DNA of 64,000 nt from an uncultured bacterium (GTDB taxonomy: Bacteria; Verrucomicrobiota; Lentisphaeria; Victivallales; UBA1829): assembly GCA_902780135.1 (NCBI GenBank), contig CACZEK010000007.1, positions 62,001 through 126,000 of the forward strand, given 5' to 3'. A program made the position numbers and the translations under genes. Numbering within the stretch: the stretch's first letter is position 1; each line of letters starts with the position of its first letter. Positions 56,174-62,219 of this stretch are shown here, in pieces. The notes under the pieces were generated by a model. It was not told where the DNA came from. It was given only the letters and a program-made list of their open reading frames with translations, and searched no databases.

Positions 56174-57541
56174 TTATGCGTTCGACGGATCGGCGGTCGC
56201 CTTTGCTTCGGGTTCCGGTTCGGCGTCCAGCTGCGAGAGGTCGGCCGACGGATGCACCACCTGCATGGAGTGGCGTTCCTTCGGGATCACGGTGAGCCAC
56301 TTCGGATTGCCCTGTTCGTCGACGCCGAGGTCGACCACGAAATACCGTTTCTCGTCCGCGGCCTTGTCGTAGCCGATGATCGTGCCGCGCGGGATCATGT
56401 TGTGCTTGTCGATGATCGCGTTGCGGATGCGGCAGTGTTCGCCGATGTCGACGTCGGACAGCAGGATGCAGTTGTGGACCGTGGCGTAGCTGTGGACGAA
56501 GACCTTGTTGAACAGGATCGAGTCGGTCACGGTGCTGCCGGAGACGATGCAGCCGTCGCAGACGATGGAGTTGATCGCCTTGCCGATGCGCGGAAGCCCG
56601 GAGGAGTCGACCTCCTCGTTGTGGATGAACTTGGCGGGGGGCAGGCTGTAGTGGTAGTTGTTGATCGGCCAGAGCGGATTGTAGAGGTCGAGGTGCGGCG
56701 TGGTGCTCCGCAGGTCCATGTTCGCCTCGAAATACGCCTTCAGCGTCCCGACGTCGCGCCAGTAGGGCTTCGTGGAGAGGTCCTGGCCGGGGATGACGTT
56801 CGTGTAGAAGTTGTAGGCGTAGAGGCGCTTCGTCTTCACGAGCGCCGGGATGATGTCCTTGCCGAAGTCGTGGCTGGTCTTGCCCGCCTTGTGGTCGCGC
56901 TTCAGGAGCGCCAGCAGGTCGGCGGAGTTGAAGACGTAGTTGCCCATGGAGGCGAGGCACATGTTCTTGTCGTTCGGCAGCGGGATCGGGTTCTTCGGCT
57001 TCTCCTGGAACCCGACGATGCGCCACTGGTCGTCCACCTCGATGATGCCGAACTGGCTGGCCTCCTCGATCGGGATCGGGATCGCCGCCACGGTCGCGAT
57101 GGCGTTGTTGTCCTGGTGGAAGTCGACCATCTGGCTGACGTCCATGCGGTAGATGTGGTCCGCGCCGAAGACCGCCACGAGGTCCGGATCGAAGTCCTCG
57201 ATCAGGTTCATGTTCTGGTAGATCGCGTCCGCCGTGCCCTGGTACCATTCGCGTTCGCGGGTCTGCATCTGGGCGGGCACCGGGATGATGAAGTGGCCGC
57301 GCTGCTGGGCGTTCGAGAGGTTCCAGCCGTTGATGATGTGTTCCATCAGGCTCTGCGATTTGAACTGGGTGAGCACGAAGATGCTGTCGATGCCGCTGTT
57401 CACGAAATTGCTCAGCACGAAGTCGATGATGCGGTACTTGCCGCCAAACGGGACTGCGGGTTTCGCGCGTTGGTCGGTCAGCGGAGCCAGACGGGTGCCT
57501 TCGCCGCCTGCGAGGATCATGGCCAATACAGATGATCTCAT
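56174..57541 (-). CDS. glgC: Glucose-1-phosphate adenylyltransferase (ADP-glucose pyrophosphorylase)
   Basis: GlgC makes ADP-glucose, the committed step of glycogen synthesis. The 455-residue protein has the nucleotidyltransferase motif [19 protein letters not shown] (about 12-30), [10 protein letters not shown] with the catalytic aspartate, [12 protein letters not shown] and [10 protein letters not shown], and the C-terminal left-handed beta helix ([14 protein letters not shown]). AGGAGGT lies 7 nt before the ATG, a perfect ribosome site. It is the first gene of glgC-HD-TauE-yihY. An extra Glu/Ala-rich tail of about 30 residues ends the protein. Confidence 0.95.
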
Positions 57542-57620: not shown

Positions 57621-57743
57621 GGCGAAAAGACAAAAAAAGACGGAAAAGCCCGTTTCCCGCCGCGGAACGGGAAAAAAGCGTCCGGGAGAACCCGTTTTTT
57701 TCGGGCGGGATGAAAAATTTTTAAAAACTTAGCCAAAACTAAC

Positions 57744-57771
57744 TTGACATCCTGAAAAACCGTGATATATT
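57744..57771 (+). promoter_or_regulatory. Consensus promoter with no protein gene behind it
   Basis: TTGACA (57744-57749, a perfect -35), a 16-bp spacer and TATATT (57766-57771). It is the best -35 box in the window and points into the 360-bp stretch before the convergent gene at 58133, where no plausible protein is encoded. Confidence 0.7.
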
Positions 57772-57777
57772 TATTTC

Positions 57778-58117
57778 ATGACAGAAAAAGCCCCGGGATC
57801 GTCCGCCGTGTGTCAGTGCAGGCGCACCGTTGTCCAAAAGGGAGAATGAGAAAAGGGGCCGGCATTCGGTTTCGCTCCGGTCATCGGCCGGAAATGAACA
57901 GAAAGCCGGTTAGGGGTAAGGCATGCGGGTCCGGTCTTCCGGCCGGGTCCGCCGGAGGGTCCCGGGGCTTTGTCTTCTTCCTTTCGCCGTTTCGTCCGAT
58001 GTGCGGCGCGACCTTTGTTTACAAGTTAGTCCAGTCAAACTTTCGGCATGATAATCGGGCGGGAAGCAGTCGCAGCGTTTTTGCAGTGGATTACCTGCGG
58101 CGGCTTCCCGCTTTTTG
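57778..58117 (+). ncRNA. Candidate structured non-coding RNA, family not recognised
   Basis: Downstream of the strong promoter, AAAGCCCCGGGA (57787-57798) can pair perfectly over 12 bp with TCCCGGGGCTTT (57960-57971), closing a domain of 185 nt. Inside are hairpins GTGC-AGGC-GCAC (57816-57827), one around GGCCG/CGGCC (57858-57889) and a C/G-rich one ending in CCGG-TCTT-CCGG (57931-57942), separated by purine-rich linkers. A terminator-like stem ends near 58117. I see no match to tmRNA, SRP RNA, RNase P RNA or a known riboswitch. A 6S-like RNA is possible but unproven. The open frame across it does not look like protein. Confidence 0.5.
58059..58116 (+). terminator. Terminator-like hairpin ending the candidate RNA
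   Basis: GCGGGAAGC (58059-58067) pairs with GCTTCCCGC (58103-58111), with an inner CGCAG/CTGCG pair, and is followed by TTTTTG. It lies 16 bp before the end of the convergent gene. Confidence 0.65.
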
Positions 58118-58132
58118 TTCCGTACGGGCGGA

Positions 58133-59527
58133 TCATTCTTCGACCTTGTCGATCTTTTTGACGGAGAAGAGCAGGATCAGGAATACCGCGAGGGCCGCGG
58201 CCGCCATGACGATCTTGTAGACCACGCCCCAGTCCTTGACGATATCGCTTTTTTCCGCAAAGTGCGGATTCGCCTTCTGTTCGGAAAGCGTGCAATCGGA
58301 CACGACGGGTTCCGTCATATTCCGCAGGACGTCCGTGAAATCCGGGGACGGCATGGGCTGGCCGGAGCCGCCGTAATAAACCCTGTAGCCGGACGGAGAG
58401 CCGTTTCCCTCCGGTGCGGCGGCGGAAGCGGCGGGCTTCAAAGCGAGGAACCGGACCTGATACACCGGGCCGGCCGCATTGAGCGCGATGTCCTTCAGCT
58501 CGTCATACTCGCCGTTGTCCAGCTCAAGCCGCCAGGTTTTGGAGCGTGCCGCGGAGAACTTGACGACGCGGTCGGAGACGGGCGTGCGGAAGGCTGCGGA
58601 GTCGAGCTTGCGGACGGTCCCCGACGCGATCAGTTTCCCGGCTCCGTCGTAGAGGCGGTACGGGCGCGAGAAAAAGACGTCGGAGCTGTCGACGGTGATG
58701 CTTTCGAGCGGCGCGAATCCGTTGGAGAAGGTCACGGCGGTCGTCCCGCCTTTTGTTTTTTGGGAAAGAATTTCGACGGGCGAGGACTCGGACACGGGCG
58801 ACAGGCTCTTCCGGTTCCGCACGATCTGCAGGGAGATGCCGTCGATCTTCGGCGACTCGCGGAATTTCTCCTGCTCCACGATGTTGTTGTCTCCCTCGAC
58901 AACGCGGAAAAGAGGCGAATCCTTGATCTCCGTGTAGTTGTCCATGACGATGACGAAGCTGAATTCGCGCACCGGGGCGGGGAACGTGATGGTGTCGTTC
59001 CTGAGGTTGACCCGGCTGGAATAATCCAGGAACGCCCCCTCGGCGATCGGATCGTTTCCGTTCGCGGCATATACCTTCACCTTCTTGTCGAAATCCTTCG
59101 CTTTGGTGAGAATGCGCAGGCCGACGGCGCGCGCGTCGTCCGAGGCGGAAAAAACCGCCGCGTCCAGGCTCGCCGAAATCCGCACGGATCCGTCCGGGAG
59201 CGTTTCGAAGCCGGTAACGGCCGCGGAGTGGCTGGACCCCACGGCGTTGTCCTGAAGGAGCCGTTTCGCCTCGCCGACGATGAACGGGCAGTTCTCTCCG
59301 TCCGGACCGACGATGCGGATGCCGTTCGGAATCGTCCCGGTCTCGCGGTGGATGTCGGCGTCGATCATGAAGACGGAGATGTCCTTCGGATGTTCGGGGA
59401 GGAGGATGTCCTTGCAGAACGGGAACGCGGCGGTCTTCTCCTCCTCGCCGGAGAATCCGGTCGCGGCCGCGAGCAGGAGGCACGACGCGGCGAAGACGGT
59501 CTTGAGGTGATTACGGACGGGTTTCAT
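58133..59527 (-). CDS. DUF3999-like secreted/membrane-anchored protein
   Basis: This 464-residue protein has a signal peptide (to about residue 28), a large predicted beta-rich periplasmic part and one C-terminal membrane helix (VVYKIVMAAAALAVFLILLFSV) followed by KKID. Its layout and its position directly behind a DUF2339 gene fit DUF3999, whose genes habitually pair with DUF2339. The sequence resemblance (ILTKAKDFDKKVKVYAANG, SPLFRV..., discoidin-like folds) is suggestive only. AAAGGAG lies 9 nt before ATG 59527; an earlier ATG at 59551 is worse placed. It overlaps the DUF2339 gene by 17 bp. Function unknown. Confidence 0.68.
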   Translation of the reverse strand: MKPVRNHLKTVFAASCLLLAAATGFSGEEEKTAAFPFCKDILLPEHPKDISVFMIDADIHRETGTIPNGIRIVGPDGENCPFIVGEAKRLLQDNAVGSSHSAAVTGFETLPDGSVRISASLDAAVFSASDDARAVGLRILTKAKDFDKKVKVYAANGNDPIAEGAFLDYSSRVNLRNDTITFPAPVREFSFVIVMDNYTEIKDSPLFRVVEGDNNIVEQEKFRESPKIDGISLQIVRNRKSLSPVSESSPVEILSQKTKGGTTAVTFSNGFAPLESITVDSSDVFFSRPYRLYDGAGKLIASGTVRKLDSAAFRTPVSDRVVKFSAARSKTWRLELDNGEYDELKDIALNAAGPVYQVRFLALKPAASAAAPEGNGSPSGYRVYYGGSGQPMPSPDFTDVLRNMTEPVVSDCTLSEQKANPHFAEKSDIVKDWGVVYKIVMAAAALAVFLILLFSVKKIDKVEE

Positions 59528-62219
59528 CGGAAGCATCTCCTTTCTGTGCAAACCGGGCGTACAGCCAGGCCCCGGCGATGAGCGCCGCGCCGGTGATCAT
59601 GCAGCCTGCGATCCGGTACAGCGCGGGCGTCCCCGCCAGATCGATCAGGAATATTTTCAGGACGGTGACGGCGAAGAGGACCAGCGCGGGAATGCGGACG
59701 ACCTTCTTCCTGCGGAGGATGCCGAACGCGAGGAGCGCGAGCGCGTAAACGCCCCAGAGCAGCGAGACCGCGATCCGCGCGCCGCCGCGCGACCCGTACA
59801 GGCCGACCAGGAACCACGTCTCGTCCGTGCTGTAGACGAACCAGAGGACCAGCGCGCTCAGGATGAAGAACCGGCTGACGGTCTGTCCCCCGGCACGGTC
59901 TCCGTTCTCCGCTTTCGCAATCGCCCCGAAGAACATTCCGGCGAAAAACAGCGCCGCCACCGCGAGAAGGTTCGGGAAGAACCGCCAGAGCGAATCGTGC
60001 ACGGAGTTTCCGCCGGACTGCCATGAGAAGATGACATACCCCAGAAACACGCAGAGCAGGAACCCGCCCGCGATCTTGATACCGGCGGCGTTCTCCCGGA
60101 ACAGCCTCGGGATCAGCGACAGGATCAGCAGGTACAGCGCGGCAGTCACGATCACGCCGCCGACCTTCAGATGCGGCAGATACGTGAACTCGCCCGCGAT
60201 CAGGAGGAAGCTCACCGCGAACGCGCACCAGAACATCGTCTTCGACGAGCGGGAGTAAGCGGGCCGGTTTTCGGTATCGGAGGACGGACCGGACGCGGGC
60301 ATCAGGTCGGCGCCGTAGCGGTTCAGCAGGAAGAATCCGCCCGCGAGCGCCGCCGTGAAGGAGCCGAAGTTCAGCAGGCGCGTCCAGAACGTGACGCTGT
60401 GGCGCCAGTAGCCGCGCGACAGGTCGAATCCGAGCAGGCGCACCGCCGCGACCATGTACACGACGTAGCTCAGGCGCAGCAGGATCACGGAGCGCGTCCG
60501 GCACGCGATGTACAGCATCGCCGCCGCCTGCGCCGACCACGCCACCGCCAGATGGTCCTGGTTCAGCAGCAGCGGGAACGTCAGCGAGATCAGGCCGCAG
60601 GCGAACACCAGCAGCGTGAGCAGCAGGTTGCGGTCCTCCAGCTTCATGCGGATCAGCAGCGCGATCTGGAGCAGGTAGACGAGCGCGCCGCCGAACGTGA
60701 TCGCGGCGGCGTATTCGCGGCCGTAAATGCGGATCGTCGGCGGGATCGCAAGCGACAGGAAGACGATGCCGTTCAGCGCGGCGAATCCGAGTTCCAGCAG
60801 CGACACCTTGCGTTTCGTGAACAGGTTGAACGCCACGGTCTGCACGCAGAACGCCAGGAAGAACAGCGTCCCGGCGGCGAGGGCGACCGTGTAGCCATGG
60901 TTGATGAGATCCGCATGCTCGAGCCAGCCGTTCGTCCTGACATACGGCATGGAATAGGTCCCGTGCCCCGGGAACGGGTTCGAGGCGGCGTAGATGCCCC
61001 AGGTGAAGAGGAACGACAGGATGTTCACCGGCTGCCACGAGCGCATCCGCGCCACGACGAGCGAGCCGACGACCAGGATCAGCATGTAGCCGTACAGCCC
61101 GGCGAGGTTGCGCGACCCGGTGTCCATCAGGACCGGCGCCAGGTAGCCGCCGCAGACCGCCAGCACCGCCAGCAGGATCGAGTTGAACCGCAGGGCGAGC
61201 GCGACGCCCGCCGCCGTCACGACGACCAGCCCGGCAAGCCCGGCAAGCGGACTCAGCAGATGGTACACCGACACGCTCGCGAACACGCACAGATACAGCC
61301 CCGCGAACCCGGCGCCGGCGAGCGCCGTCCCGAAGATGCGGTACTTCGCGCCCTTCAGCAGGCGGCATCCGATCCCGAGCAGGACCATCGTGAACAGCGC
61401 GGCGATGGAGAGACGGAATTCCGGCGGGAGCAGATTGCGGTCGTGCGTGTACTTGATGAAATACGCCAGCCCGAACACGATCAGAAGCACCGCCGCGCGG
61501 AGCATCCAGGTCGTCGCCACCGCGTATTCCTTCGGCATGCCGCCCTTGCGGTATTCCTCCCCGACGACGATCCACTGCCACATCTTCGACAGCGTATTCG
61601 CGGTGCGCTCCTCGATGGGGGAGCGTTTCATGCAGGTCCGGATATCGTCCGGTTCGGACCGCGGCGCTTGGATCGACTTTTCCATCCAGGCGCTGCTCTC
61701 TCTCGGAGCTTTGAGCGGAGATTTGGCATCGGGTGTTGTACTTGCTGAAGTGACGACGGGACGTGGTTCCGGCTGAACCGGTTTCGGAGGTTCCGGTTTG
61801 ACGGGTGATGCCGTCTGTGCCGGGGGTTCCGTGCGGACCTGCATGGGCGTGGCTTCCGGCTTTGCGGCAGGCGGCGTTCCGGTTCTGATTTCCGGCGTGA
61901 CGACAGCCGCGGATTTGACTTCCGGCTTGATCTCCACCTGTTTTTGAGGCGGATTTGCCGCGGGCTGATTTGACAGCAGGAATCCGGGCACCGTCTTGCT
62001 CTCCGTCGAGCCGGGCACCTGGATTTTGACTTCCTGCTTCGGCGGGGGCGCGGACTGCCCGGGACGCGCGCCGGCTTTCATCGCCTTTTCGATCTCTTTG
62101 AGCCGGAATGAAAGGTCCTTGAGCTTCGAGCTGCATCCGATCAGAATGATCAGGTTGATGATGGGAAGAAAACCGACAACAAAGATCAAGATAAGGATCA
62201 GAAGGATCTCATTCGGCAT
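59511..62219 (-). CDS. DUF2339-family polytopic membrane protein
   Basis: This 902-residue protein starts with one membrane helix (MPNEILLILILIFVVGFLPI), a short charged helix (KLKDLSFRLKEIEKAMKAG) and a Pro/Lys/Glu-rich linker of about 150 residues. More than twenty hydrophobic segments then run to the C-terminus. FGLAYFIKYTHDRNLLPPEFR and LLKGAKYRIFGTALAGAGFAGLYL match the typical DUF2339 start of the membrane region. The function is unknown. AAGGAAAG precedes the ATG at 62219; the 18 codons upstream to 62273 lack a ribosome site. Coupled to the DUF3999-like gene by overlap. Confidence 0.83.
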   Translation of the reverse strand: MPNEILLILILIFVVGFLPIINLIILIGCSSKLKDLSFRLKEIEKAMKAGARPGQSAPPPKQEVKIQVPGSTESKTVPGFLLSNQPAANPPQKQVEIKPEVKSAAVVTPEIRTGTPPAAKPEATPMQVRTEPPAQTASPVKPEPPKPVQPEPRPVVTSASTTPDAKSPLKAPRESSAWMEKSIQAPRSEPDDIRTCMKRSPIEERTANTLSKMWQWIVVGEEYRKGGMPKEYAVATTWMLRAAVLLIVFGLAYFIKYTHDRNLLPPEFRLSIAALFTMVLLGIGCRLLKGAKYRIFGTALAGAGFAGLYLCVFASVSVYHLLSPLAGLAGLVVVTAAGVALALRFNSILLAVLAVCGGYLAPVLMDTGSRNLAGLYGYMLILVVGSLVVARMRSWQPVNILSFLFTWGIYAASNPFPGHGTYSMPYVRTNGWLEHADLINHGYTVALAAGTLFFLAFCVQTVAFNLFTKRKVSLLELGFAALNGIVFLSLAIPPTIRIYGREYAAAITFGGALVYLLQIALLIRMKLEDRNLLLTLLVFACGLISLTFPLLLNQDHLAVAWSAQAAAMLYIACRTRSVILLRLSYVVYMVAAVRLLGFDLSRGYWRHSVTFWTRLLNFGSFTAALAGGFFLLNRYGADLMPASGPSSDTENRPAYSRSSKTMFWCAFAVSFLLIAGEFTYLPHLKVGGVIVTAALYLLILSLIPRLFRENAAGIKIAGGFLLCVFLGYVIFSWQSGGNSVHDSLWRFFPNLLAVAALFFAGMFFGAIAKAENGDRAGGQTVSRFFILSALVLWFVYSTDETWFLVGLYGSRGGARIAVSLLWGVYALALLAFGILRRKKVVRIPALVLFAVTVLKIFLIDLAGTPALYRIAGCMITGAALIAGAWLYARFAQKGDASDETRP

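Follow-up and report, generated by a model that had tools for sequence, protein, structure and literature searches.

The glgC intergenic region

The window is a 64-kb stretch of DNA from an uncultured Lentisphaeria bacterium. Between glgC and a convergently oriented gene it carries an operator, a promoter, a predicted structured RNA, a spacer hairpin, a second operator and a terminator of the type found after flavodoxin genes. There is no flavodoxin gene, no DUF3793 gene, nor any gene at all between the RNA and the terminator, and the next gene is the convergent one. The features, in order, are as follows.

56174-57541, minus strand: glgC, the divergent neighbour, 93-97% identical to its relatives in the genus
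57650-58132, no strand: RNA cassette segment of ~480 bp, absent from the glgC junction of four relatives (L033, L034, L038 and L039)
57726-57745, plus strand: operator 1 (op1), palindrome AACTTAGCCAAAACTAACTT, TTAG-N6-CTAA, with 0 mismatches to the family pattern
57744-57771, plus strand: sigma-70-type promoter, TTGACA (57744-57749), 16-nt spacer and TG-extended TATATT (57766-57771)
57778-58022, plus strand: predicted RNA, running between a presumed start site and a point just 5' of op2, based on the promoter, closing stem and spacer hairpin
57788-57974, plus strand: conserved RNA core (covariance model R1, 161.8 bits)
57985-58008, plus strand: spacer hairpin, then CGACCTTTGTTT, a weak terminator-like site
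58023-58042, plus strand: operator 2 (op2), AAGTTAGTCCAGTCAAACTT, 297 bp downstream of op1
about 58056-58117, plus strand: terminator hairpin with T-run, resembling the hairpin behind flavodoxin in sister operons
58133-59551, minus strand: convergent neighbour, DUF3999 in the first-pass annotation; no Pfam match at E<=0.001

The promoter is a strong one: it matches 11 of 12 consensus positions, its TG and -10 box are conserved in an alignment of 18 RNA copies, and its -35 box shares its first two bases with op1; promoter-like sites numbered 3 in the scanned stretch against 0.3 expected. The first-pass annotation had described this as the only perfect TTGACA in the window. There are in fact 13 when both strands are counted, and what is singular about the site at 57744 is that it alone is followed by TANNNT at the proper spacing. 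The perfect 12-bp closing stem (57787-57798 with 57960-57971) is exactly as that annotation gave it, and the TATATT box and the terminal hairpin with its T-run are present too. Its view that the region holds no plausible protein likewise stands: the orthologous copies do not preserve the 152-aa ORF at 57762-58220, and we rejected a protein-coding reading on that ground. The convergent neighbour encodes a protein that diverges fast within the genus (about 63-74% identity) beside a glgC that is 93-97% identical.

A conserved, branched RNA

The window RNA has a predicted folding energy of -106.4 kcal/mol (z = -6.3 relative to dinucleotide shuffles), and 0 of 200 shuffles folded as well. Within its core the comparison of related copies defines the following elements, all on the plus strand.

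57788-57804: 5' arm of the closing stem P1, pairing with 57954-57970
57808-57827: hairpin P2 (57808-57814 with 57821-57827), 91% paired, 3 pairs with double changes
57833-57843: small hairpin P3, 60% paired in the common alignment
57836-57857: highly conserved purine-rich stretch AAAAGGGAGAATGAGAAAAGGG (alignments A2 and A5)
57858-57909: branched arm P4, outer stem conserved
57908-57923: conserved purine-rich linker GGTTAGGGGTAAGGCA (alignment)
57925-57952: hairpin P5 (57925-57936 with 57941-57952), 95.9% paired, 2 pairs with double changes
57954-57970: 3' arm of P1, pairing with 57788-57804

The predicted fold is that of a conserved RNA of ~190 nt with five helices, in which a closing stem encloses four branches. 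Across 21 copies 91.3% of the cells are paired, and 9 pairs show double changes against 4.0 after shuffling; 0 of 500 shuffles equalled the real alignment on any measure. The shuffle control leaves relatedness in, and these numbers are to be read as support rather than as a probability. Sliding the 3' partners out of register lowers pairing to 32-50%. Covariation of the closing stem among relatives, a check proposed in the first-pass annotation, was found: 98% of the P1 cells are paired in the 21 copies, with double changes at 2 pairs. Support is good for P1, P2 and P5; for P4 it extends to the outer stem, the inner stems differing between classes of copies yet covarying, and P3, judged by class-wise folds, is well formed in the feo class only and weak in the window copy. 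The strong copies score 126-204 bits with the covariance model on the plus strand and about 18-30 bits on the reverse strand.

Scans against Rfam 15 returned no family match for the window copy (E up to 5) or for 15 related loci (gathering threshold), and tmRNA-like and other known RNA families were rejected on this lack of a match. The known Rfam riboswitch classes, including NiCo/czcD, likewise gave no match to their curated models. The czcD/NiCo riboswitch (RF02683) and other operon leaders resemble this RNA in being structured, in lying upstream of metal-transport operons and in occurring in many copies, but the window copy matches no Rfam model, has no downstream gene and has a larger fold. 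It does not occupy the 5'-leader position of a riboswitch, whereas the copies at feo and flavodoxin operons do so by position. In the searchable literature we found no account of the RNA family.

Distribution and classes of the RNA

When 41 genomes were searched at the DNA level, 12 contained the region; 11 of these belong to the same genus, and the matches in the second genus comprise the promoter-operator part only. Of 137 genomes of the order searched with the covariance model, 14 gave a match, namely 12 of the 13 genomes of a genus of rumen Lentisphaeria (G007 is the exception), G104, and, with a short weak match, G118. Among 388 sampled genomes of the phylum no copy was seen outside the genus save the same weak G118 match, an absence weakened by the incompleteness of metagenome-assembled genomes. 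The G104 contig (G104:C28, L158), from a genome assigned to another family, was rejected as evidence of a wider distribution; it is probably contamination from this genus, because its glgC start is 95% identical to that of the window. The 12 genomes of the genus hold 20 strong copies and 1 divergent copy (21 strong copies if G104 is included), and the named relatives are uncultured Lentisphaeria/Victivallales from rumen metagenomes, such as RUG10770 and RGIG10120.

Since 12 of 13 genomes of the genus retain the region and its pairing covaries, it is, judged by these comparisons, more than chance, and they point to a real, genus-restricted, previously uncatalogued RNA of ~200 nt in rumen Lentisphaeria bacteria. 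The divergent copy (L160, G009:C8, 3433-3616, minus strand) is flavodoxin-linked and strongly diverged at 32.7 bits; it retains the purine-rich motif, both operators and the ~302-bp spacing, and should be useful for deeper covariation analysis.

The copies fall into three classes: those upstream of DUF3793-flavodoxin, those upstream of feoB or feoAB, and orphans. Sister copies of the window RNA sit between two operators directly upstream of DUF3793-flavodoxin or feoAB. In the RNA tree the feo copies group together (100/99), the flavodoxin copies make up a weakly supported cluster (71/89), and a third group consists of the glgC-linked orphans (86/83; 90/98 with G104), the window copy lying on a long branch (0.33). 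Ten genomes each carry a feo-linked or an orphan copy and never the two together: orphans occur in G000, which is the window's own genome, G001, G002 and G011, and feo-linked copies in G003, G004, G005, G006, G008 and G010, the count for G003 being weak at 69% completeness. Trees of FeoB protein and of feoB DNA were too poorly resolved for counting gains and losses of the two kinds. At L123 (4275-5339), L115 and L121 a gene fusing flavodoxin-4 and glutathione-peroxidase domains lies divergent from the flavodoxin-linked RNA, near op1, and may share the operator with it.

The orphans of the window, G001 and G011 are followed by a terminator and then a convergent gene, and all other copies except that of G002 precede operons. 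In G001 (94% complete) the orphan was the sole copy found, and no DUF3793 gene was found. In G002 the sequence behind op2 still resembles, by eye, the start of DUF3793, and this orphan may be a second case of duplication with gene loss. In four relatives (L033, L034, L038 and L039) both glgC and the convergent gene are present and the ~480-bp segment is missing, as seen with blastn/tblastn and model searches, so that a cassette would either have been inserted at the window locus or lost in those four. The three glgC-linked copies are 73-84% identical in the RNA and 52-57% in the adjacent spacer. The window terminator is 76.9-81.3% identical to the hairpins after flavodoxin, and the spacer hairpin has equivalents in the flavodoxin-class copies that vary with compensation (read from the sequences by eye). 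The simplest origin of the window copy would be a duplicated flavodoxin-type locus whose genes were then lost, leaving a predicted free-standing transcript with its own terminator.

Paired operators and a candidate regulator

The two operators lie 296-302 bp apart in 22 of 22 copies, op2 being the less perfect palindrome. In the window's own genome all six sites with <=1 mismatch form three pairs, at the window, at the flavodoxin locus and on contig C18, where feoB follows at a distance of about 4 kb. The pair on C18 (L192, G000:C18, 6992-7203) precedes a secretin-like gene, and a ~70-nt hairpin RNA stands there in place of the 200-nt RNA. The number of sites by itself is not enriched, the control pattern likewise giving 6 + 6, and the evidence from the operators is their pairing and location, not their count. 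A composite operator-promoter pattern found RNA genes only, in the own genome, G001, G002 and G011 (four of five genomes), and the control found 0.

Other genera of the family show the same layout of operator, promoter, hairpin and operator upstream of feo and DUF3793/flavodoxin genes, the operators flanking a short hairpin that is often an intrinsic terminator with a U-tail; G007, the member of the genus that lacks the RNA, also has the short form. At several DUF3793 loci op2 abuts the start codon. We considered the constant operator spacing as proof of looping and rejected it, because the spacing in other genera is 70-189 bp (DUF3793 values by subtracting positions). Two near-identical places ~8 kb apart on one contig (L012 and L021, G015:C172) combine this operator-promoter with a short hairpin and a further operator-like palindrome, upstream of a small gene without assigned identity. 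At three feo loci of other genera (L173, L176 and L184) the frames downstream of op2 start cysteine-rich (e.g. KCSCGCG), apparently an unusual FeoA N-terminus.

In the own genome feoB has, ~0.7 kb away, a gene whose product carries Fe_dep_repress and Fe_dep_repr_C domains, and in G013 the operator is located upstream of a DtxR-like gene (identity read from sequence) adjoining a DUF3793 gene; a Fur homologue is likewise present. Compared by eye with the 19-bp DtxR consensus TTAGGTTAGCCTAACCTAA (PMC7762939), the operator agrees in the TTAG/CTAA half-sites and the full box does not match, which makes it at most a relative of the DtxR box. As in DtxR/IdeR promoters, the half-sites lie over the -35 box and a DtxR-type gene is found near feoB; the differences are the N6 half-site spacing, the lack of inner repeats, and a second operator downstream of a hairpin RNA. 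Given that only the half-sites match and that a Fur homologue exists, DtxR-type control of the RNA promoter is no more than likely. The same operator is common to the window RNA and to the feoAB and flavodoxin operons, and we infer metal-dependent repression, probably by iron (or Mn).

Interpretation

The reading that we favour, with about an even chance of being right, is that the window contains a stand-alone gene for a structured, trans-acting regulatory RNA of ~190-245 nt that would be induced by iron starvation. A metal-loaded DtxR-family repressor bound to op1 over the -35 box, aided by op2, would close the promoter under iron-replete conditions; iron starvation would lift repression, and the RNA would be made along with flavodoxin and the ferrous-iron importer. 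Since the window copy has nothing to control in cis, its RNA would act in trans, using its conserved purine-rich linkers for base pairing or else binding a protein. The usual small RNA seeds directed against ribosome-binding sites are unlike such purine-rich linkers.

RyhB, PrrF and FsrA, small RNAs of iron starvation, would be functional analogues. The presumed likeness to RNAs of the RyhB type lies in repression by an iron-loaded regulator and in co-production with iron-uptake genes; the window RNA differs in being larger, branched and highly structured, in having two operators and paralogs upstream of operons, and in its probable control by a DtxR-type regulator rather than by Fur.

The majority of copies lead an operon, and a serious rival proposal makes the RNA a leader that controls the feo and flavodoxin operons in cis, as a riboswitch or attenuator that may sense iron, FMN or some other cofactor, and the window copy a duplicate stripped of its genes. 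The short hairpins, often U-tailed intrinsic terminators, between the operators of other genera, the weak terminator-like hairpin 3' of the window RNA, and a branched fold with conserved purine-rich junctions that is aptamer-like are all consistent with this proposal, and the likeness of the window terminator to the one after flavodoxin points to gene loss. A cis role is indeed natural for the operon-linked copies. On the other hand, the orphans keep promoter, operators and covarying helices despite 16-33% divergence, G001 holds an orphan only, and in relatives the corresponding kinds of gene have a plain hairpin in place of this RNA; as a full account of the window copy we regard the leader proposal as possible but rather less than probable. 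We favour the free-standing regulatory RNA because no gene stands behind the window copy and because the only copy in G001 is an orphan, and the cis and trans roles may both be true, of different copies.

An unlikely reading of the window copy is that of a duplicate, decaying or selfish, whose cassette was copied to the glgC junction and is transcribed without function. Such a duplicate would fit a segment missing in four relatives, the long branch, the G.G mismatch in P1 and the altered linker bases, but the window copy retains 89.4% of its base pairs (85-89% across the orphans), the five orphan copies alone show double changes at 10 pairs, the RNA and promoter are better conserved than the adjacent spacer, and the copy has been retained in three genomes. 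Most improbable of all is the divergent 6S RNA raised in the first-pass annotation. The length near 190 nt and the long closing stem are alike, and no other 6S RNA was found in 13 relatives (0 of 13 matched RF00013, with five control genomes positive); we nevertheless rejected this reading, given a multi-branched fold of closing stem and branches P2-P5 in place of the rod-like form and large central bubble of 6S, no match to the Rfam 6S model at threshold, several paralogs per genome that are linked to iron genes and lead feoAB and flavodoxin operons, and a genus-restricted distribution. The same annotation's other suggestion, a new RNA and lineage-specific regulator, has gained ground, for the RNA is confined to one genus, covaries, has no Rfam match and is apparently tied to an iron-starvation operator.

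Tentatively, and with more doubt than confidence, we propose that a new RNA class has replaced a plain hairpin leader flanked by two metal-regulator operators, that it would serve both as a leader of iron-starvation operons and as an independent trans-acting RNA gene, and that it can move as an operator-RNA-operator cassette. Missing from Rfam 15, the family has a proposed connection with iron starvation in uncultured rumen Lentisphaeria that can be tested. The layout of two operators and a hairpin, present at feo and flavodoxin operons in several genera, looks like an undescribed form of iron-gene control, and the orphan copies are a natural experiment on the possible conversion of an operon leader into an independent regulatory RNA.
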